Positions 9,060 to 24,343 of a DNA stretch of 64,000 bases are shown here, one piece after another. Numbering within the stretch: the first letter of the stretch is position 1; each line of letters opens with the position of its first letter. The translations under genes were made by a program, and so were the position numbers. The notes beneath the pieces are model-generated. The model was not told where the DNA came from, did no database searches, and was given only the letters and a program-made list of their open reading frames with translations. The DNA comes from Flavobacterium bizetiae (GTDB taxonomy: Bacteria; Bacteroidota; Bacteroidia; Flavobacteriales; Flavobacteriaceae). The stretch covers positions 1-64,000 of the forward strand of contig NZ_CADCSU010000055.1 in NCBI RefSeq assembly GCF_902804475.1, written 5' to 3'.

Positions 9060-9641
9060 ATGAAAAAAATTTTACTTATTCTGGCTTTAGCTATGTTTAG
9101 CTTTGCAAATGCACAAAAAGGAACAATCTTAGTTGGTGGAAACATCGGATATGTTTCTGATAAAACTGAATTTAGATTTGGTGAAACAAAAACAAATACA
9201 TTTACTTTTTCTCCTAAAGTTGGTTACCAATTCAATGACAACTGGACTGTTGGGGGTGAGTTTACAGTGTCTTCATCTAATGATGAGAACGCAGTTAGAG
9301 AAATAAAAGAGAATGGTTTTAAACTTGGAGCATTTGTTCGTTACTCAGTGCCATTGAGTCAAACTTTTTCTGTTTTTGCAGATATGGGTGCAGGTTTTCA
9401 AAATGAAAAAACAAAAGTTTATGGTGCTGATAATAGTTACTCAAAAACTAAAGCAGATGGTATGTACGTAGGTATTACTCCGGCACTTTTCATTAACATG
9501 AAAAAAGGTTTTGGTCTTAACTTCAGTATTGGTGGTTTAGGTTACGAAACAATGAATGTTGAGAATAACGGAGGAGATAATAGCCGTTTCTACTTCAACT
9601 TTGGACAAACATTTAACATTGGAGTTTCAAAAAATTTCTAA
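9060..9641 (+). CDS. Small outer-membrane beta-barrel protein, copy 1 of 3
   Basis: Predicted 8-stranded porin-like outer-membrane protein of 193 residues with a signal peptide (MKKILLILALAMFSFANAQ, cleavage after ANA) and amphipathic strands typical of the outer-membrane beta-barrel family: VGYQFNDNWTVGGEFTVSS, FVRYSVPLSQTFSVFADMGAGFQNE, TPALFINMKKGFGLNFSIGG, and a C-terminal Phe (ISKNF/VSKNF) used for barrel insertion. It shares these blocks with the next two genes; this copy is closest to copy 3. Its own terminator follows at 9667-9698, so it is a separate transcript. Function unknown; no ligand-binding motif is visible. Confidence 0.8.
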   Translation: MKKILLILALAMFSFANAQKGTILVGGNIGYVSDKTEFRFGETKTNTFTFSPKVGYQFNDNWTVGGEFTVSSSNDENAVREIKENGFKLGAFVRYSVPLSQTFSVFADMGAGFQNEKTKVYGADNSYSKTKADGMYVGITPALFINMKKGFGLNFSIGGLGYETMNVENNGGDNSRFYFNFGQTFNIGVSKNF

Positions 9642-9666
9642 TTTTTAGAAATATATTTCAATTTCG

Positions 9667-9698
9667 AAAAAGCATCAGCTATAGCTGATGCTTTTTTT
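9667..9698 (+). terminator. Terminator of beta-barrel copy 1
   Basis: Arms AGCATCAGCT and AGCTGATGCT with a 2-nt loop, flanked by an A run and a T run, lie 26 nt after the stop. Confidence 0.9.
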
Positions 9699-9838
9699 GT
9701 TTTGTAGCGTTTTTGTTGTGTTTTGTTATTGTTTGCTAAAACGTTAAAATGCGGATTTATAGATATTTGTCGTGTGATTTGTTTTTTGTAATGGCATTGT
9801 TGTTGTTAAAACAGTATTAAAATTTAAATATCACATTT

Positions 9839-10417
9839 ATGAAAAAAATTCTAGTTATCGCTGCATTGGCTATGTTTAGCTTTGCAAATGCTCAAAAAGG
9901 ATCAATTTTAGTTATGGGAAGTGTTGGTTACAATTCTCAAAAGGATTCAAATTCTATTTCAGATACCAATCAACATTCTTTTTCTTTTTCGCCAAAAGTG
10001 GGATATCAGTTTCACGAAAATTGGACAGGTGGTATTGAAGGTCGGGTAAGCACTCTTAAGCAAGAGCTTAGTAATCACACTGAGTCTAAAAATACAAGTT
10101 TTGGAGTAGGCGGGTTCATACGTTATTCTAAGCCGTTAAATGAAACTTTTTCTGCTTATGCAGATTTTGGAGTTGGATATCAAAATACTAAAACAACAAA
10201 CAACATAGGGGTTCCTAATACAGAAGGATATGGAGTTTATGCTGCTATTACTCCTGCAATTTTCATCAATGTGAGTAAAGGTTTTGGTCTGAATTTTAAT
10301 ATTGGGGGATTAGGGTATTCTACTTTAAAATATGACGGAGTTAATGGAAATAGAATTAAATCTTTTAATTTCAATTTAGGACAAGCATTTTCTGTAGGGA
10401 TTTCGAAGAATTTTTAA
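9839..10417 (+). CDS. Small outer-membrane beta-barrel protein, copy 2 of 3
   Basis: Paralogue of the flanking genes, 192 residues. The signal peptide MKKILVIAALAMFSFANAQ is nearly the same as in copy 1; shared strand motifs are FSFSPKVGYQFHENWTGG, FIRYSKPLNETFSAYADFGVGYQN, ITPAIFINVSKGFGLNFNIGG and the C-terminal ISKNF. It is the most diverged of the three, for example in the loop region QKDSNSISDTNQHS. The variable segments fall between strands, as expected of exposed loops. Flanked by terminators on both sides, it is probably transcribed alone. Function unknown. Confidence 0.8.
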   Translation: MKKILVIAALAMFSFANAQKGSILVMGSVGYNSQKDSNSISDTNQHSFSFSPKVGYQFHENWTGGIEGRVSTLKQELSNHTESKNTSFGVGGFIRYSKPLNETFSAYADFGVGYQNTKTTNNIGVPNTEGYGVYAAITPAIFINVSKGFGLNFNIGGLGYSTLKYDGVNGNRIKSFNFNLGQAFSVGISKNF

Positions 10418-10439
10418 ATCTATGATATATTTCGATTTC

Positions 10440-10472
10440 AAAAAGCATCCGTCGCGGCGGATGCTTTTTTTT
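10440..10472 (+). terminator. Terminator of beta-barrel copy 2
   Basis: Stem AGCATCCG / CGGATGCT with flanking A and T runs, 22 nt after the stop. The outer part of the stem (AGCATC) is shared with the copy 1 terminator, while the inner pairs differ. Confidence 0.9.
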
Positions 10473-10584
10473 ATGTTTAAATATTTGTTTTGTTCAAGCA
10501 GAGTTAAGCCACTGTTTTAGTTTTCTTTATTTAATGTGATGATTTTAACAAATTGTTAATAAATGTGTTGCGATTGGATACTGG

Positions 10585-10592
10585 TATTTTTG
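10585..10592 (+). promoter_or_regulatory. Possible -7 box of beta-barrel copy 3
   Basis: TATTTTTG fits the TAnnTTTG consensus 38 nt before the ATG. A TTG at 10568-10570 is only 14 nt upstream, shorter than usual, so the call is weak. Confidence 0.35.
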
Positions 10593-10629
10593 TTGTTATG
10601 TCTATCTAAAATTTAACACTTATTTACAC

Positions 10630-11211
10630 ATGAAAAAAATGCTACTTATTCTTGCATTAGCTACAGTAAGCTTTGCAAATGCCCAAAAGGGAACAATTTT
10701 AGTTGGTGGAAACATTGAGTACAATTCTATAACTTATGATCATCCATTAGTGAAAACACAAACAAACGAATTTGGATTTTCTCCAAGAGTGGGTTATCAG
10801 TTTCATGATAACTGGACTATTGGAGGTGAATTTACCGTGTCATCTTCAAAACAAAATGGGGGTGGATTAGAAAATAAAAGTAATACTTTTTCATATGGTG
10901 CCTTTGTACGATATTCAGTTCCGTTGAGTGAGACTTTTTCTGTATTTGCTGATTTAGGAGCCGGTTTTCAGAATCAAAAAAGTAAAAACCTGGAAAATGG
11001 ATCAGTAACTTTAGATAGTAAAGCAGACGGTTTCTATGCAGGAATAACTCCGGCTCTTTTTATCAATATGAAAAAAGGTTTTGGTTTAAACTTTAGTATT
11101 GGCGGTTTAGGCTATGAAACATTAAATTTTGATTCTACTGATACCGATGTTTGCAGATTCTATTTCAATTTTGGTAAAACAGTTACTATTGGAATTTCTA
11201 AAAACTTCTAA
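10630..11211 (+). CDS. Small outer-membrane beta-barrel protein, copy 3 of 3
   Basis: Third paralogue, 193 residues, with signal peptide MKKMLLILALATVSFANAQ. It shares long blocks with copy 1: KGTILVGGNI, VGYQFHDNWTIGGEFTVSS, FVRYSVPLSETFSVFADLGAGFQN, ITPALFINMKKGFGLNFSIG and ISKNF at the end. The inter-strand loops differ (for example QNGGGLENKSNT). Copies 1 and 3 are closer to each other than to copy 2, although copy 2 lies between them, so the order of duplication was not simply sequential. Its own terminator follows at 11225-11253. Function unknown. Confidence 0.8.
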   Translation: MKKMLLILALATVSFANAQKGTILVGGNIEYNSITYDHPLVKTQTNEFGFSPRVGYQFHDNWTIGGEFTVSSSKQNGGGLENKSNTFSYGAFVRYSVPLSETFSVFADLGAGFQNQKSKNLENGSVTLDSKADGFYAGITPALFINMKKGFGLNFSIGGLGYETLNFDSTDTDVCRFYFNFGKTVTIGISKNF

Positions 11212-12854: not shown

Positions 12855-15089
12855 ATGAAAGCAAATGTCGAAAAAAAGGTATTTACACCCGGAAAATGGG
12901 GAGCATCAGTGAACGTTCAGGATTTTGTGTTAAAAAACATTACTCCCTATGAAGGAGATTCTTCTTTTCTATCCGGACCATCATTAAAAACTACCAATTT
13001 GTGGAATATCTGTAAGGAAGCTTTATTAAAAGAACGAGCAAGTAACGGGTGTTTGGCAATAGATGTAGAAACGATTTCAACTATAAACGGATTTAAGCCA
13101 GGATATATTAAAAAGGAAGATGAAGTTGTGGTTGGTTTACAAACAGATCAGCTTTTAAAAAGAGCAATGAAGCCCTTTGGAGGAATTAAGCTGGTAGAAT
13201 CTGCGGTAAAAGAGAGAGGATTAAAAGTTTCTGATCGTGTAATCGATATTTTCAACTATGCTAAAAATCATAACGAAAAAGTTTTTGATGCGTATGATAA
13301 AGAAATAAGAGATTATCGTTCTAAACATATATTAACGGGTTTGCCTGATAATTATGCCCGCGGACGTATCATAGGTGATTTCCGTCGTATGGCTTTGTAT
13401 GGAGTGAATCAGCTTATTGCCTTTAAAAAAGAGGATCATGCCAAAGTGGGTGGTGAAATGACAGAACATAAAGTTCGTTTGCGTGAAGAAATTTCGGCTC
13501 AAATTAGTGCCCTGCAAGATATGCTTGTAATGGCAGCAGATTATGGTTTTGATATTTCTCTTCCTGCACAAAATGCAAAAGAAGCAGTGCAATGGGTTTA
13601 TTTTGCTTATCTGGCTGCGGTTAAGGAGCAGGATGGAGCTGCAATGTCATTAGGAAATGTCTCTTCATTTCTTGATATCTACATACAAAGAGATCTTGAA
13701 GAAGGATTAATTACTGAATTTGAAGCACAGGAATTAGTAGACCAGTTTGTAATGAAGTTACGAATGGTGCGTCATTTAAGACCAGGTGCTTATGATGAAA
13801 TATTTGGTGGAGACCCAACATGGGTAACGGAATGTATTGGAGGTATGTTTAATGACGGAAGAACGAAAGTAACCAAAACATCATTTAGATTCCTACAGAC
13901 ATTATATAACTTGGGAGCATCTCCAGAGCCTAATTTAACGGTTTTATGGTCAGAAGATCTTCCGCAAGGATTTAAGGATTTCTGTGCACAAGTTTCAATT
14001 GATACATCATCTATTCAATACGAAAATGATGATTTAATGCGACCAAACAGAGGTTCTGATGATTACGGAATTGCTTGTTGTGTATCTCATCAGGAAATTG
14101 GTAAATCTATTCAGCACTTTGGAGCACGTGCCAATTTGCCTAAAGCATTATTAATTGCTTTAAACGGAGGTAGAGAAGAACGCGGTGGAGCATTAATTAT
14201 GAAAGATATTCCGTTTATTCATGACGAAGTATTAGATTATAATGTAGTAAGCAATGTTTTCAAACGTACACTGAAAGAAGTTGCCAGAGTATATGCTAAG
14301 TCTATGTATGTTATTCATTATATGCATGATAAGTATTACTACGAAAGAGCACAAATGGCGGTGATTGATTCTGATCCGCATATTGATATTGCGTACGGTG
14401 CAGCAGGAATTTCTATTATTGCAGATTCATTATCAGCAATAAAATATGCTAAAGTAAGACCAGTAAGAAATGAAAACGGAATTACAGTAGATTTTAATAT
14501 CGAAGGTGATTATCCTAAGTTTGGTAATGATGACGACAGAGTAGATTCTATTGCTCAGGAAATTACCGCTTTCTTTATCAAAGAACTTAGAAAACATACT
14601 GCATATAAAAATGCAACACCAACACTTTCATTATTAACGATTACATCGAATGTAATGTACGGAACGAATACCGGAGCGACTCCTGACGGACGTAAAGATG
14701 GTGAGTCTTTTGCCCCGGGTGCTAACCCAATGCACGGACGTGATTCTAGCGGAGCAATTGCTTCATTAAATTCTGTTGCAAAACTAGATTATAACGATGC
14801 TCAGGATGGTATTTCTAATACATTCTCTATGATTCCGAAATCATTGGGAGATACCAGAGAAGAGCAAGTAACCAATTTAGTGAATGTTATGGATGGTTAT
14901 TTTGCACAAATGGCACATCACTTAAATGTAAACGTATTAAATCGCGAAACCCTTCAAGATGCCTATAATCATCCTGAAAATCATCCACAATTGACCATAA
15001 GAGTTTCGGGTTATGCTGTTAATTTTGTGAGATTATCAAGAGCGCATCAATTAGAAGTTATAGCGCGTACTTTTCACGAAGCAATGTAA
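12855..15089 (+). CDS. pflB: Formate C-acetyltransferase (pyruvate formate-lyase)
   Basis: Cytoplasmic glycyl-radical enzyme converting pyruvate and CoA to acetyl-CoA and formate in anaerobic metabolism. The 744-residue length is normal. The catalytic Cys pair is present ([10 protein letters not shown]408-C409) and so is the radical glycine in the C-terminal RVSGYAV motif (G719). Other family blocks include [27 protein letters not shown] and the C-terminal [12 protein letters not shown]. The activating enzyme gene follows 90 nt downstream and a candidate formate carrier precedes it, so this is a complete fermentative module. Since the enzyme is destroyed by oxygen, its presence suggests growth in low-oxygen habitats. 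A hairpin between pflB and pflA may lower expression of the activase. Confidence 0.95.
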
Positions 15090-18592: not shown

Positions 18593-20380
18593 TTATTTTG
18601 TCTCGTTTTCGAAAAGATTTACCAAACTTTTAACGTCTATTTTGCATAATTGTTGTAATTGATTAGCAGTTCCATGCTCAATAAACACATCAGGAACACC
18701 TAAAATTTCTATCTTATTTTTAAAATTATATAATGCGGCAAACTCTAAAATGGCCGTTCCAAAACCTCCGTTTACAGTCCCTTCTTCTATAGTTATAATC
18801 CTTTCGAAATCAGTGAAAATGCTATTTAAAGATTTGATGTCTAATGGTTTAATGAATGGAAAGTCATAATGTGCAATTGTCTCAGAATTATTACATTCTT
18901 TAAGTGCTAAAATAACATTATTTCCAATAGTTCCGGTAGATAAAACAGCAGTTTTTGTTCCCGATTTTAATTGACTAGCCTGTCCTATAATAATTTTTTC
19001 ATAATGTCCGAAATTTTCTACTTCCCAATTAGGTAAGACACCACGACCTCTTGGATATCGAATCGCGATAGGATGATTTAATCCCAATTGAGCTGTATAT
19101 AAAATGTTTTGCAACGCAATTTCGTTGATGGGAGCATAGATAATCATATTAGGAATTGGGCGCAAATAAGCAATATCAAAAACACCATGATGTGTTGCGC
19201 CATCTTCGCCAACCAAACCAGCTCTGTCTAAACAAAGAATAACAGGTAAATTTTGTAAAGCTACATCATGAATAACCTGATCATAAGCCCGTTGTAAAAA
19301 AGTAGAATAAATAGTGCAATACACAATCATACTCTGAGTCGTCATTCCCGCAGCAAGTGTTACCGCATGTTGTTCGGCAATTCCCACATCAAAAGCGCGT
19401 TCCGGAATTTCATCCATCATGAACTTTAAAGAACTACCAGATGGCATTGCAGGTGTAATTCCGATAATTTTATCATTCTTTCGCGCTAAGTCTAAAACCG
19501 TCAATCCAAAAACATCCTGATATTTTGGAGGTAAATTTTCTTCAGATTTTAAAATAATTTCTCCAGTCGAAGCATCGAATTTTCCTGGTGCATGATATTT
19601 TACCTGATTTTCTTCGGCTTGTTGCAGGCCTTTACCTTTCGTGGTAACAATATGAAGGAATTTTGGTCCTTTTATATTTTTTAATCGGGTTAATTCTTTA
19701 ATTAAAGCTGAAATGTCATGACCGTCAATTGGCCCCGAATAATCGAAGTTAAGAGACTTGATCATGTTGTTCTTCTTCGGGTTCTTTCCTTCTTTTACAG
19801 CAGTTAGGTATTTTTTTAGAGCACCAACGCTAGGGTCAATTCCAATAGCATTATCATTTAGAATCACCAGTAAATTGGCATCTGTAACACCGGCATGATT
19901 TAAACCTTCAAAAGCCATTCCTGAAGCAATCGAAGCATCGCCAATTACTGCAATATGCTGTTTGTCTAAATCGCCTTTTAATTGAGATGCAATCGCCATT
20001 CCGAGTGCGGCAGAAATAGAAGTAGAAGAATGCCCAACGCCAAAAGTATCGTAAATACTTTCGCTTCTTTTAGGGAAACCTGAAATTCCGTCGATTTGCC
20101 TGTTGGTATGAAAGATTTCCCTTCTTTCGGTCAAAATTTTGTGTCCGTAAGCCTGATGTCCAACATCCCAAACCAATAAATCTTCAGGTGTATTAAAAAC
20201 ATAGTGTAAAGCAATTGTCAATTCAATAACACCAAGACTAGCGCCCAAATGTCCTTCTTTTACAGAAACAACATCAATAATAAACTGACGCAATTCTTGC
20301 GCAATTTGAGGAAGTTGCGCTTCGGTTAATAAGCGTAAATCAGTTGGATTGTATATGCCGGAAAGTAAATTGCTTTTCAT
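18593..20380 (-). CDS. dxs: 1-deoxy-D-xylulose-5-phosphate synthase
   Basis: Thiamine-diphosphate enzyme that condenses pyruvate and glyceraldehyde 3-phosphate in the first step of the MEP isoprenoid pathway. The 595-residue protein has the N-terminal DXS motifs (EGHLGASLGVIELTIALHYVF, VWDVGHQAYGHKIL), the ThDP and metal motif (GDASIASGMAFEGLNHAG ending NDN), and the transketolase-like second half (FDVGIAEQHAVTLAAGM, DRAGLVGEDGATHHG). It is somewhat shorter than the E. coli enzyme (620). A TAAATTTG box (complement of 20395-20402) lies 15 nt before the start codon, implying a very short leader. The DUF3078 gene follows closely. Confidence 0.95.
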   Translation of the reverse strand: MKSNLLSGIYNPTDLRLLTEAQLPQIAQELRQFIIDVVSVKEGHLGASLGVIELTIALHYVFNTPEDLLVWDVGHQAYGHKILTERREIFHTNRQIDGISGFPKRSESIYDTFGVGHSSTSISAALGMAIASQLKGDLDKQHIAVIGDASIASGMAFEGLNHAGVTDANLLVILNDNAIGIDPSVGALKKYLTAVKEGKNPKKNNMIKSLNFDYSGPIDGHDISALIKELTRLKNIKGPKFLHIVTTKGKGLQQAEENQVKYHAPGKFDASTGEIILKSEENLPPKYQDVFGLTVLDLARKNDKIIGITPAMPSGSSLKFMMDEIPERAFDVGIAEQHAVTLAAGMTTQSMIVYCTIYSTFLQRAYDQVIHDVALQNLPVILCLDRAGLVGEDGATHHGVFDIAYLRPIPNMIIYAPINEIALQNILYTAQLGLNHPIAIRYPRGRGVLPNWEVENFGHYEKIIIGQASQLKSGTKTAVLSTGTIGNNVILALKECNNSETIAHYDFPFIKPLDIKSLNSIFTDFERIITIEEGTVNGGFGTAILEFAALYNFKNKIEILGVPDVFIEHGTANQLQQLCKIDVKSLVNLFENETK

Positions 20381-20446: not shown

Positions 20447-21220
20447 TTACTTTTTAATTGTAATCGGTAAAACATAAGTTGATCGAACAATTTTATTTTT
20501 TAGTTTTCCGGGAACCCACTTTGGAGTTTTTTCTAAAATTCCGATAATATCTTTTTCACTTGCAGATGTTGTATTTTCAAGTATTTTAAAATTGCTAAGA
20601 CTTCCGTCGCCTTCAATTACAAATAAAACGGATATTTCTCCTTGTTTTGCTGTGATAAGATTTTTTGAAAAATTAGAATTGAATTTTTTTATTCCATTTT
20701 TTGGAACAGCTGCAATGTCTAAATCATTTGAATTATAAATAATTCCGTAATGTCCAGATTGAGGTTCCTCTTGTTCAGATTGAGAATGTTCTTCGGCGTT
20801 AAGTTTCTCTATAGGCATCAAAATAATTCCAGTAGTAGCATGTTGTTCTGGTTTGACATCTTCTACAACTTCAATTCTATCTATTTTTTTCTTATTTCCG
20901 TCTTTGTCTTGGCAACTAAATAATGTAGTGCCCATAGCTATAAAAAGTGCTAATAAAAACATTTTTCGATAATGGATTTGGCTGTGTAATATTTGAGATG
21001 GAATCTGAATATTTATTTCACTTAACTGTTCACTTTTAAGTTTTCCACAGACATTTTTATGTGAAATAAAATACTGCTGGATTTCCTCCGGAAGCATTGC
21101 CGTGAAATCAACAACAGTTTTAGAACAACTCAAACAAAATCTTCCATTGTCTTTTGGTGTCATCTTATCCCAGTTTTCGTGGCAAGGTTCTGGAATTGTT
21201 ATTTTAAAATTTCTTTCCAT
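20447..21220 (-). CDS. Cys-box / TonB-like C-terminal domain protein, copy 1 of 4
   Basis: 257 residues with a three-part layout. An N-terminal box (about 1-65) holds four conserved cysteines in PEPCHENWDKM, GRFCLSCSKTVVDF and VCGKLK. A hydrophobic segment (MFLLALFIAMGTTLFSC, about 87-103) ends in a lipobox-like LFSC followed by QDKDGNKKK. The C-terminal part (about 165-257) resembles the TonB C-terminal fold (EISVLFVIEGDGSLSNFKIL, WVPGKLKNKIVRSTYVLPI). It is the last gene of a tandem array of four. The Cys spacing suggests metal or redox chemistry, and the C-terminal domain suggests envelope interaction, but no function is known. It cannot be a standard TonB because the Pro-rich spacer is absent. 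Confidence 0.7.
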   Translation of the reverse strand: MERNFKITIPEPCHENWDKMTPKDNGRFCLSCSKTVVDFTAMLPEEIQQYFISHKNVCGKLKSEQLSEINIQIPSQILHSQIHYRKMFLLALFIAMGTTLFSCQDKDGNKKKIDRIEVVEDVKPEQHATTGIILMPIEKLNAEEHSQSEQEEPQSGHYGIIYNSNDLDIAAVPKNGIKKFNSNFSKNLITAKQGEISVLFVIEGDGSLSNFKILENTTSASEKDIIGILEKTPKWVPGKLKNKIVRSTYVLPITIKK

Positions 21221-21229
21221 GATTAAAAT

Positions 21230-22162
21230 TTAATTTATTTGGCTTATGCGGTCATCATTTTTGTTCACAAGATTAATTGAAACTATTTTTGAAAGATTCC
21301 TTTTTCTTCTTTCAGTATTCAGGCTATCTTTCTCTACGACAATATTCAATCTAATAACGGTTGAAATGCCTTTACCATTAATTATACCTGGTTTCCATTT
21401 TTTAGATTCTTGTAAAACTTTAATTATTTCTTCTCCGGTTTCATGGCCAATATTATCAAAAACCTTTATTTCATTTAAAGTTCCGGTCTTGTCGATTACA
21501 AAAGAAACTTTAATTTCTCCCGAGATACGTTTGGCTTTTTTAGGAATTTGAAATTCATTTTTAATAAACTCCGTAAATTTTTCAAACCCGCCCGGATAAT
21601 CTGGTATTGTCTCGATATATTCAGGCGGTGGAATGCCAGTGAGAGTTTCATGAGGATAATTGTCTATATATACGCTAGATCCGGTGGGCTCGATTTTTAT
21701 TGTAGTTACATATTGAGTAGATAGATGTGGAGGTGTTGGTTCTTTTAATATGCTATCCTCGCTATTAAATTTTGTGTCAGTTTTTGGTAAAGAATCTTCG
21801 ACAAGTTCTATTTTATCAATTTTCTGTTTGTTTCCATCTTTATCAGCGCAACTAAACAAAGTTGTGCCCATAGCAATAAACAATGCTAATAAAAATATTT
21901 TGTGATAGTGCGTTTGTGTGTAAAGAATACGACTTGGAATCTGGATTGTAATCGCCTCTAATTGAGATTTCTTAAATCTTCCACATACATTGTTGTTTCG
22001 ATTTTGAATGAAGTAGTTTTGAATTTCATCCGGTAACATAGTTGTGAAATCTACAACTGTTTTAGAACAACTTAAACAAAAACGACCATTATCTTTAGGT
22101 TGCATTTTATCCCAATCTTCGTGGCAAGGCTCGGGAATCGTTAGTTTGTGTTTATTGTTCAT
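21230..22162 (-). CDS. Cys-box / TonB-like C-terminal domain protein, copy 2 of 4
   Basis: Paralogue of 310 residues, the longest in the array. It has the N-terminal box (PEPCHEDWDKM, GRFCLSCSKTVVDFTTMLPDEIQ, VCGRFKKSQLEAI), hydrophobic segment IFLLALFIAMGTTLFSC followed by ADKDGNKQK, a linker with TPPHLST and TGIPPPEYIETIPDYPGGFE, and the best-preserved TonB-like domain (FTEFIKNEFQIPKKAKRISG, KVSFVIDKTGTLNEIKVFDN, GEEIIKVLQESKKWKPG). A charged tail (RRKRNLSKIVSINLVNKNDD) of about 25 residues is unique to this copy. Its ATG overlaps the stop of the upstream copy by 4 nt (ATGA-type), and it ends 10 nt before copy 1, so all four genes look co-transcribed. Function unknown. Confidence 0.7.
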   Translation of the reverse strand: MNNKHKLTIPEPCHEDWDKMQPKDNGRFCLSCSKTVVDFTTMLPDEIQNYFIQNRNNNVCGRFKKSQLEAITIQIPSRILYTQTHYHKIFLLALFIAMGTTLFSCADKDGNKQKIDKIELVEDSLPKTDTKFNSEDSILKEPTPPHLSTQYVTTIKIEPTGSSVYIDNYPHETLTGIPPPEYIETIPDYPGGFEKFTEFIKNEFQIPKKAKRISGEIKVSFVIDKTGTLNEIKVFDNIGHETGEEIIKVLQESKKWKPGIINGKGISTVIRLNIVVEKDSLNTERRKRNLSKIVSINLVNKNDDRISQIN

Positions 22163-22986
22163 TGCTTAATTGTAATGGGTAAAACGTAAGTTGATCGAAC
22201 GATTTTGTTTTTTAGTTTTCCAGGAATCCAATTTGGCGCCGTTTTTAAAACTCTAATAGCTTCTTCTCCTATTTCTTTCGGTGTATTTTTAGCAATGTTG
22301 AAATTACTCAGACTCCCATCTTTTTCGATAACAAATATAAGTGAATATTTATCTTTGAATCTTTTTTCTGCTTTTGGAGTATTATAATTTTTGGTAAAAA
22401 AGGCAAGAAAATTTTCCATTCCTTTTTCCGGAACGGGTAAAACATCTAGATCAGTTGAATTATAAATAATGTCATAACTTAAAGGCTTTTCATTCATCAT
22501 TATCAATCCAGTTGTAAAGCTACCAACATGTTTTTCGGCATGTTTTTCTTTTTTAGATTCGATCTGATGACCGTAACACCAAGAAGTTGTTTCGTTTTCT
22601 TCTTGAGTTTGTCCTGTATTATTTACAATCTCGATTTTATCAATTTTATGTTTGTTTCCGTCTTTATCCTGACAACTAAACAATGTTGTTCCCATGGCGA
22701 CAAACAAAGCCAATAAAAACATTTTATGATAATTGGTTTGTGTATATAAAACCCGACTTGGAATTTGAATGGTAATGGTTTCTAATTGCGAATTTTTAAA
22801 TCTTCCACAAATTCTTTCATTTTGATTTTGAATAAAAAAATGCTGAATTTCTTCAGGCAATAGCGAACTAAAGTCAATAACCGTTTTAGAGCAGTTCATG
22901 CAAAAACGACCATTGTCCTGCGGAGTCATTTGGTCCCAGTTTTCGTGACAAGGTTCAGGAATCGTTATTTTAAATTTTCTATCCAT
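22159..22986 (-). CDS. Cys-box / TonB-like C-terminal domain protein, copy 3 of 4
   Basis: 275 residues from the ATG at 22986. A longer frame starts at 23034, but its extra 16 residues overlap copy 4, while the ATG at 22986 aligns with the conserved MxRKFKITIPEPCHENW start of the family. It keeps all box cysteines (PCHENWDQM, FCMNCSKTVIDF, ICGRFKNSQ), the hydrophobic segment MFLLALFVAMGTTLFSC and the C-terminal domain. Its first third is almost the same as copy 4 at DNA level, while its last 20 residues (GKLKNKIVRSTYVLPITI) equal those of copy 1, so it looks like a mosaic made by recombination between copies. The linker has an unusual His/Glu-rich run (SKKEKHAEKHVG). Confidence 0.7.
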   Translation of the reverse strand: MDRKFKITIPEPCHENWDQMTPQDNGRFCMNCSKTVIDFSSLLPEEIQHFFIQNQNERICGRFKNSQLETITIQIPSRVLYTQTNYHKMFLLALFVAMGTTLFSCQDKDGNKHKIDKIEIVNNTGQTQEENETTSWCYGHQIESKKEKHAEKHVGSFTTGLIMMNEKPLSYDIIYNSTDLDVLPVPEKGMENFLAFFTKNYNTPKAEKRFKDKYSLIFVIEKDGSLSNFNIAKNTPKEIGEEAIRVLKTAPNWIPGKLKNKIVRSTYVLPITIKQ

Positions 22987-22987
22987 A

Positions 22988-23839
22988 TTATTGCTCAAGT
23001 GAAATGGGTAAAGCATACAATGTTCGAACATCATGATTGTCTAATCGACCTGGAATCCATTTTGGAGCCATTTTTAAAACCCTGACAGCTTCTTCGCCAG
23101 TCCCGGATCCTGCATCTTTAATTATTTTGAAGGTACTCAGACTGCCATCTTTTTCTATAATAAAGGTAATGTAAATTTTACCAGTAATTTTTTCTGTTTT
23201 ATTGGGGTTAACGTAATTGTCTTTAATAAAGCTATAAAAATTTTCAATTCCCTTTTCCGGAACGGGTGAGATATCTAAACTTGCGGAATTAAAAATACCA
23301 TCATAATCGACAGGGTCAGAAACTGAACTATGATCTACTGCAATTACTTCTCCTTTTGTAACATAAGATACCGCAGCAAAATTTGTTGAAGTTATTTTTG
23401 AAGGTTGCGGTTTTTGAAGTAAAGAATCTTTAGCTGCTGGTAATTTTGTAGAATCGCTTCGGTTTCCGGTATCTTGAATAACTTCTATCTTATCAATTTT
23501 ATGTTTGTTTCCGTCCTTATCCTGACAACTAAACAATGTTGTCCCCATAGCAACAAACAAAGCCAATAAAAACATTTTATGATAATTGGTTTGTGTATAT
23601 AAAACCCGACTTGGAATTTGGATGGTAATGGTTTCTAATTGCGAATTTTTAAATCTTCCGCAAATTCTTTTATTTTGATTTTGAATAAAAAAATGCTGAA
23701 TTTCTTCAGGCAATAGTGCACTAAAGTCAATAACCGTTTTAGAGCAGTTCAGACAAAAACGACCATTGTCGTGCGGAGTCATTTCGTCCCAGTTTTCGTG
23801 ACAAGGCTTAGGAATTGTTAATTTAAATTTTTGCTCCAT
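22988..23839 (-). CDS. Cys-box / TonB-like C-terminal domain protein, copy 4 of 4
   Basis: First gene of the array, 283 residues from the ATG at 23839. A TTG at 23851 would add four residues but is not favoured. It has PKPCHENWDEM, GRFCLNCSKTVIDFSALLPEEIQ, ICGRFKNSQLET, the segment MFLLALFVAMGTTLFSC followed by QDKDGNKHK, and a TonB-like end (FYSFIKDNYVNPNKTEKITG, FIIEKDGSLSTFKIIKDAG, WIPGRLDNHDVRTLYALPI). The stop lies one base before the start of copy 3. The gene is divergent from tadA with a short AT-rich gap of about 60 nt that must carry both promoters. Function unknown. Confidence 0.7.
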   Translation of the reverse strand: MEQKFKLTIPKPCHENWDEMTPHDNGRFCLNCSKTVIDFSALLPEEIQHFFIQNQNKRICGRFKNSQLETITIQIPSRVLYTQTNYHKMFLLALFVAMGTTLFSCQDKDGNKHKIDKIEVIQDTGNRSDSTKLPAAKDSLLQKPQPSKITSTNFAAVSYVTKGEVIAVDHSSVSDPVDYDGIFNSASLDISPVPEKGIENFYSFIKDNYVNPNKTEKITGKIYITFIIEKDGSLSTFKIIKDAGSGTGEEAVRVLKMAPKWIPGRLDNHDVRTLYALPISLEQ

Positions 23840-23899: not shown

Positions 23900-24343
23900 A
23901 TGATAAATCCTTTTACCGACGAATATTTTATGAAAAAAGCTTTACAGGAAGCTGAAATCGCTTTTGAGAAAGGCGAAATTCCTGTTGGGGCTATAATTGT
24001 TGTTGCAGACAGAGTGATCGCAAGTAGTCATAATTTAACCGAATTATTGAATGATGTTACGGCTCATGCCGAAATGCAGTCGATAACCGCAGCAGCAAAT
24101 TTTCTGGGTGGTAAATATCTAAAAGATTGTACTTTGTATGTTACTCTCGAACCTTGCCAAATGTGTGCAGGTGCTTTGTATTGGAGTCAGATTTCGAAAA
24201 TTGTTTTTGGCGCCCGAGATGAACAACGGGGTTTTATAACTATGGGAACAAAACTACATCCTAAAACTACCGTAGTTTCCGGAGTTATGGCGAATGAAGC
24301 TGCAGATTTAATGAAACGTTTTTTTATTGAAAGACGTAAATAA
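23900..24343 (+). CDS. tadA: tRNA-specific adenosine deaminase
   Basis: Zinc enzyme converting adenosine to inosine at the wobble position of tRNA-Arg(ACG). The 147-residue protein shows the deaminase signature: H56-A-E58 (TAHAEMQ) with catalytic Glu, and PCQMC (C86, C89), followed by the family block ISKIVFGARDEQRG. The start MINPFTDEYFMKKAL is in line with flavobacterial homologues as I recall them. A second ATG at 23930 would delete residues of helix 1. It is divergent from the Cys-box array and is followed 12 nt later by the SUKH-like gene, with which it may share a transcript. Confidence 0.92.
   Translation: MINPFTDEYFMKKALQEAEIAFEKGEIPVGAIIVVADRVIASSHNLTELLNDVTAHAEMQSITAAANFLGGKYLKDCTLYVTLEPCQMCAGALYWSQISKIVFGARDEQRGFITMGTKLHPKTTVVSGVMANEAADLMKRFFIERRK

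Follow-up and report, generated by a model that had tools for sequence, protein, structure and literature searches.

A 64,000-nucleotide stretch of the Flavobacterium bizetiae genome (contig NZ_CADCSU010000055.1), hereafter the window, carries four tandem paralogues on its minus strand, each of which joins a four-cysteine box to an internal lipobox and a TonB-like C-terminus. This arrangement, first described in an earlier note made from the DNA letters, is confirmed here. The genes are packed in an operon-like manner, with gaps of 1, -4 and 9 bases from gene 1 to gene 4, and their products follow a common plan: a box of about 76 residues, a hydrophobic stretch, a conserved post-cysteine stretch and, after a variable linker, a TonB domain at the C-terminus. 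With the gene 1 protein as query, the other three are recovered at E values of 1e-112, 3e-88 and 4e-59; as gene 1 finds its three paralogues and the box recurs in 52 further genomes, the pattern goes beyond chance. The array comprises the following features.

22988..23839, minus strand: array gene 1 (P0004, 283 residues), first in transcription order
23612..23839, minus strand: gene 1 box (residues 1-76), by profile match, this copy being part of the profile
23528..23575, minus strand: hydrophobic core of the gene 1 export signal (residues 89-104), by sequence and signal-scan procedure
23525..23527, minus strand: gene 1 lipobox cysteine 105 (LFS/C, the slash marking the cut), predicted lipidated mature N-terminus, by sequence
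23477..23524, minus strand: gene 1 conserved post-cysteine stretch QDKDGNKHKIDKIEVI, putatively TonB-box-like, by sequence comparison
22991..23284, minus strand: gene 1 TonB C-terminal fold (residues 186-283), by AlphaFold model and structural alignment
22159..22986, minus strand: array gene 2 (P0003, 275 residues)
22759..22986, minus strand: gene 2 box, by profile match
22672..22674, minus strand: gene 2 lipobox cysteine 105, by sequence
22174..22362, minus strand: gene 2 TonB_C region (Pfam residues 209-271, below cut-off), by protein scan
21230..22162, minus strand: array gene 3 (P0002, 310 residues)
21935..22162, minus strand: gene 3 box, by profile match
21848..21850, minus strand: gene 3 lipobox cysteine 105, by sequence
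21341..21538, minus strand: gene 3 TonB_C (above Pfam cut-off), by protein scan
20447..21220, minus strand: array gene 4 (P0001, 257 residues)
20999..21220, minus strand: gene 4 box (residues 1-74; fourth cysteine in CGKLK), by profile match
20912..20914, minus strand: gene 4 lipobox cysteine 103, by sequence
20462..20647, minus strand: gene 4 TonB_C region (Pfam residues 192-253, below cut-off), by protein scan

The box is marked by PCHE[ND]W, GRFC-x2-C-x-K-T-V-[VI]-D-F and a fourth cysteine, all present in each of the four proteins. The motifs had been given before as PCHENW, GRFCxxCxKTVxDF and CGRFK; the first two hold throughout, with N or D at the fifth position of the first, while CGRFK is found in three genes and reads CGKLK in gene 4. 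A profile built from six boxes, which recovers those 6 in the genome of origin, has matches in at least 53 genomes out of a phylum-wide sample of 395, that genome included, a lower bound given that at most 14 candidates per genome were scored. The box thus does occur in other Bacteroidota proteins, as had been claimed. A pattern scan of named genomes yields at least 555 relatives among at least 589 stretches, and the best 79 loci are nearly all titled Flavobacterium or Flavobacteriaceae genera, the remainder being Bacteroidota bins. From the loci that were fetched, 223 profile hits reduced to 203 distinct box proteins once duplicates, fragments of fewer than 75 residues and hits without a start methionine had been dropped. 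All four cysteines are retained in 201 of the 203 (the exceptions bear our handles L102 and L146, the latter with a box shortened by a stop codon) and are invariant in a 62-row alignment.

The AlphaFold model of full-length gene 1 has block values of the predicted local distance difference test (pLDDT) of 86-95 across box residues 11-70; modelled alone, the box reaches a mean of 82 and block values of 85-90 over the same residues. Short strands flank the CxxC and lead into a helix, after which come a strand at the fourth cysteine and a short closing helix. No family covering the box emerged from Pfam and NCBIfam scans of the four array proteins up to E 1, and no recurrent box-like family from such scans of 62 diverse members. 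A PHROGs search with the 4 boxes gave weak matches only (best E 0.025), a PDB sequence search short, chance-like ones (best E 0.077), and fold searches a best Foldseek E of 2.3 and no VIA-align Z of 2 or more among 22 chains, which is not proof of a new fold. DUF1289 (PF06945, Escherichia coli YdhL) resembles the box by eye in PC...GFC-x2-C...MSD.E; its cysteine spacing differs, no export signal is seen in YdhL, and hhalign against YdhL alone returns a probability of 7.4, so that this assignment is not supported. The box is a putative metal-binding domain, probably for zinc.

Behind the box, L-F-S-C closes the hydrophobic segment at residue 103-105 in all four array proteins, in agreement with the internal lipobox described before, and the hydrophobic core begins at residue 87-89 rather than at the extreme N-terminus. 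A signal-peptidase motif likewise ends the segment in 184 of the 200 box proteins that could be tested (3 of the 203 were too short), namely a lipobox in 151 and a signal peptidase I site with glutamine at +1 (small-x-small before glutamine) in 33, with 16 matching neither strict pattern; these proteins are not independent, since 114 of the 200 belong to the same type as the array proteins and have inherited LFSC from a common ancestor. For comparison, 1800 random 24-residue pieces cut from the outer parts contained 5 lipoboxes and 56 glutamine sites. As membrane helices often end in small residues, harder controls were used: among 39 testable proteins from wider loci, some of the same genus, the strict patterns fit 26 and the loose ones 33, compared with 7 of 27 non-box open reading frames whose first hydrophobic segment is similarly placed (box proteins excluded, frames called by script and not annotated). 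Glutamine directly behind the cut, the Q-rule, has been published for the first mature position in Bacteroidetes, and the hydrophobic core followed by A-x-A before glutamine or by a lipobox, as in the box proteins, is that of Bacteroidota signal peptidase I and II substrates as that work describes them (PMC5837995). Unlike these substrates, the box proteins place a conserved domain of about 76 residues ahead of the signal.

Ahead of the box there is no clear signal: a weak hydrophobicity threshold is reached within the first 60 residues by 8 of the 203 proteins, seven at 1.31-1.36 and one at 2.03. Together with the cleavage motifs in 184 of 200, this argues for a cytosolic box followed by a cleavable Sec signal, and the box, with nothing clear ahead of it that could export it, probably remains in the cytosol and is cut from the exported part. 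An ordinary lipoprotein with both ends in the periplasm, which the earlier note had named as one of the cases that would refute it, is for the same reason a poor fit.

What is exported behind the box? In the gene 1 model, residues 181-283 have block pLDDT values of 87-98, and the best VIA-align matches of the C-terminal part are TonB C-terminal domains (6i97_D with Z 10.2 and a root-mean-square deviation of 1.9 over 86 residues; 5lw8 with Z 9.2). The TonB-like fold proposed from the letters is thereby borne out, although a protein scan of the four reaches the Pfam cut-off for TonB_C in gene 3 only. A plasmid record annotated 'energy transducer TonB (x2)' matches over 96% of the gene 1 protein at 28% identity. 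Among 62 diverse members, CarbopepD_reg_2 is found in 34, TonB_C in 5, Plug in 4 and Por_Secre_tail in 2, and SusC/RagA models match 34 of the 62. According to one study, a carboxypeptidase-like domain is the N-terminal extension of many Bacteroidetes receptors and has been implicated in contact with TonB (PMC12204202); most of the cargoes are therefore parts of the interface between TonB and its receptors. For topology the most telling cargoes are those with a type IX secretion tail: Por_Secre_tail scores above its Pfam cut-off at the ends of L041, which has a lipobox, and L042, which has a glutamine site, and no protein exported across the outer membrane can remain attached to a box in the cytosol.

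The genome of origin has 48 SusC/RagA-type places over cut-off (56 matches) compared with 11 TonB_C places. It also encodes TonB_C proteins that lack the box and carry ordinary N-terminal signals, one a lipoprotein and one with a glutamine site, so that the box is a modular addition; one further TonB gene, with a proline-rich spacer (PPPPPPPP), adjoins an ExbD gene. In the outer parts of the box proteins a recurrent [ML]G-E-V-x-V resembles the LNEVVVxG found behind the SusC extension in 5 of 6 receptors inspected. The motif [MLVI]G[EKGDSTL][VIPLMA].[VILM] is present in 31 of 57 mature parts as against a mean of 5.0 (maximum 10) in 200 shuffles, and an earlier form of it in 81 of 114 array-type proteins versus 7.3 when shuffled and in 23 of 60 others versus 3.4; since the pattern was written after viewing the sequences and the members are partly related, this TonB-box-like motif is a lead only. 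L040, L043 and L046 are box lipoproteins with a mature part of about 60 residues, which contains no recognisable domain but a [ML]GE stretch. In L129, L143, L154, L157, L163, L167 and L168, a basic aromatic tail such as KRLWYKVKHLF stands shortly behind an MGEVVV-like glycine motif.

Constraint weighs more on box and signal than on the cargo. Between the four array proteins, identity is 69-88% in the box, 72-100% in the signal region and 75-88% in the post-cysteine stretch, compared with 8-25% in the linker and 27-57% in the TonB domain. For 110 array-type proteins, leader identity is 77.5% within one array and 71.9% between arrays, whereas cargo identity is 31% within and 38% between; of 63 proteins, 10 have their nearest leader within the same array and none has its nearest cargo there. 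When 29 close pairs from different genomes are compared, the ratio of nonsynonymous to synonymous substitution rates (dN/dS) is lowest for box and signal (0.11 each), followed by the post-cysteine stretch (0.15), TonB_C (0.19) and the linker (0.49); dS in these pairs amounts to 0.46 in the box and exceeds that in TonB_C (0.21). These values fit leaders that are under strong constraint and are now and then exchanged between paralogues. On a tree of 70 boxes, 6 changes (5-6 across bootstrap replicates) are needed to explain the TonB_C label, and at least 2 of them are required by well-supported branches; as this tree is poorly resolved, fusions of the box to TonB_C cannot be counted from it.

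What can be concluded about the role of such a composite protein? On balance, we favour a two-part precursor, in which a cytosolic four-cysteine leader, a cleavable signal and an envelope cargo are joined and the box may control export. This reading rests on what can be taken from the sequences, namely the anatomy of the proteins, their signal motifs, the breadth of their occurrence, the stronger constraint on box and signal than on cargo, and the variety of cargoes that one kind of box precedes. Roughly the first 76 residues would form a small folded four-cysteine domain held in the cytosol, and the hydrophobic stretch would serve as a cleavable Sec signal, cut by signal peptidase II before the lipobox cysteine in the array and by signal peptidase I in many relatives. 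Cleavage would free a lipoprotein of 155-206 residues with its TonB-like end facing the periplasm, where its probable role would be that of an adaptor or competitor at the periplasmic face of TonB-dependent receptors, not that of a motor-driven energiser. Before being cut off, the box may make export depend on the metal or thiol state of the cytosol or on a cytosolic partner. We put forward this last step tentatively; we prefer it for the box because the same leader is used with many cargoes and stands immediately ahead of the signal.

Several observations speak against such a precursor. The strict patterns miss 13 of the 39 wider members and the loose ones 6, among them L161, which reads as a plain membrane anchor, and a position some 88 residues into the protein is unusual among signal peptidase substrates. 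In array-type proteins, lysines and arginines are more numerous on the outer side of the segment (2.0 before, 3.9 after), although net charge favours an inside N-terminus (1.8 before versus 1.35 after; greater before in 54 of 114, smaller in 23), a leaning also seen in the remaining 86 proteins (1.9 before, 0.5 after). L102 (2450-2998) is an array copy that lacks the CxxC half of the box while its hydrophobic segment, a lipobox-like LYSC and the TonB domain are still there, which would fit a dispensable box or decay. Finally, an in-frame stop separates box and signal in the otherwise open L089 (3760-4700, TAG), L146 (3991-4560, TGA) and L158 (4160-4920, TAA), and in L132 (5320-6200) a stop stands at the end of the signal. 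These may reflect decay, sequence error or natural splits, and they are compatible with a box that works alone and equally with one that is dispensable.

The chief rival concerns the role of the box: left on a short membrane anchor after the cut, the stub, or a box freed from it by intramembrane proteolysis, would report export traffic to cytosolic partners. The constraint on the box is among the strongest in these proteins and the box recurs with unrelated cargoes, as would be expected if it were itself a functional product; the three genes interrupted between box and signal would yield nothing but the box. A eukaryotic precedent exists in iRhom2, where, according to the published work, signal peptidase likewise separates a cytosolic N-terminal domain from the rest and the N-terminal part acts in the nucleus (PMC7618786); it has no known relation to the box. 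However, no partner gene is evident, the array being adjoined by dxs and tadA, and no neighbour family of the wider members occurs more than three times among the 55 scanned of 178 listed neighbours. We regard signalling by the stub as rather unlikely.

Less probable still is the proposal of the earlier note, a permanent trans-membrane sensor and energiser in which an uncut helix joins the box to the TonB domain and couples the cytosolic redox or metal state to the receptors. The layout would suit it, with an N-terminal box, one hydrophobic helix (residues 77-102 in the AlphaFold2 model) and a TonB fold outside, and L161 has a plausible plain anchor. The array proteins share with TonB energy transducers (PF03544, TonB_C) the C-terminal fold and the periplasmic side, yet differ from them in the cleavable-looking lipobox signal and the additional cytosolic four-cysteine domain, in the absence of a proline-rich spacer from all four proteins read, unlike the TonB of the same genome that adjoins an ExbD gene, and in the absence of ExbB and ExbD from the nearest genes (10 of the window's 48 open reading frames of at least 100 residues were scanned). 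In known TonB systems, ExbB/ExbD genes nearby are not always required, and the motor-binding motif S-x-H-x-L-x-S given there (PMC12204202) is absent from the array proteins and equally from the TonB beside ExbD in this genome. The lipobox or signal peptidase I site in 184 of 200 proteins and the type IX tails of two relatives weigh further against an uncut helix. A permanent energiser is thus possible for a few members and a poor fit to most of the family, and the earlier interpretation is, as a whole, partly supported.

Even less do we expect the box to bind a cytosolic protein encoded elsewhere, in the manner of zinc anti-sigma domains or another regulator. A cytosolic cysteine domain, a membrane segment and an envelope domain are the general plan of such proteins, but no sigma factor gene lies beside the array, no neighbour family is recurrent among the 25 of 114 families listed for the wider members, and the signals look cleavable. 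Ordinary lipoproteins that start at the methionine of the hydrophobic segment, with the box a separate or accidental frame, are highly improbable: 81 of 110 array-type members have methionine immediately ahead of FLLAL, and a stop lies just before the segment in three genes, but another residue stands there in 29 of the 110, and the box is in frame with its four cysteines in 201 of 203 and has a dN/dS of 0.11.

Extended signal peptides are already known in bacteria; in the ESPR of autotransporters, for example, an extra conserved region precedes the hydrophobic core. To our knowledge, the extension in known cases is short or unfolded, and neither ESPR nor YSIRK/GXXS nor NtraC-type leaders contain a folded four-cysteine domain. 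Staphylococcal YSIRK/GXXS signals and the long two-domain signals of the NtraC model likewise have an extra conserved region before the core, which reportedly acts before or during export (PMC12004944, PMC2447879). For the present box, by comparison, there is neither a Pfam or NCBIfam model nor a paper that we could find in open-licence PubMed Central (PMC) searches. Our analysis points to domain-bearing export leaders as a little-noticed kind in Bacteroidota. We consider it possible, if doubtful, that they are phylum-wide, with a folded four-cysteine and probably metal-binding domain, that signal peptidase converts each precursor into a sensor stub, cytosolic or membrane-held, and an envelope protein of the TonB-receptor interface, and that export is thereby a regulated and reportable event. 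If the precursor reading is true, several hundred Bacteroidota genes (at least 555 related stretches) would encode two-part precursors with an unnamed cytosolic domain, and cytosolic metal or thiol state, Sec export and the energising of nutrient receptors would be linked in genomes rich in such receptors, with 48 SusC-type places in this one. We would expect most of these genes to be annotated under one of the two names carried by the plasmid matches, 'energy transducer TonB' and 'carboxypeptidase-like regulatory domain-containing protein'.

The array occupies a defined genomic site, flanked by the following genes.

18593..20380, minus strand: dxs, downstream flank in the same direction, with a 66-base gap to the array and the element TAAATTTG before dxs
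23900..24343, plus strand: tadA-type deaminase gene, divergent upstream flank, with a 60-base gap to the array

The suspicion that the array is an insertion between these two genes is upheld: of 8 genomes that lack the array, 7 have them separated by 41-94 bases and the eighth has them on different contigs, and within 3-kb flanks both border the array in 73 of 79 named loci, one in 3 and neither in 3. A TAnnTTTG element, which we take to be a Bacteroidota promoter element, stands just before dxs in six empty sites inspected, and the window retains one there, from which it follows that the array was added beside dxs without taking the element away; none was found before gene 1. The closest neighbours of the array, taking the two flanks together, are dxs, a DUF3078 gene, tadA and an open reading frame without a family. 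Elsewhere in the window, positions 9060-11211 hold three tandem outer-membrane beta-barrel genes of 192-193 residues (OMP_b-brl), and positions 12855-15089 a pyruvate formate-lyase-like gene with a glycine-radical domain.

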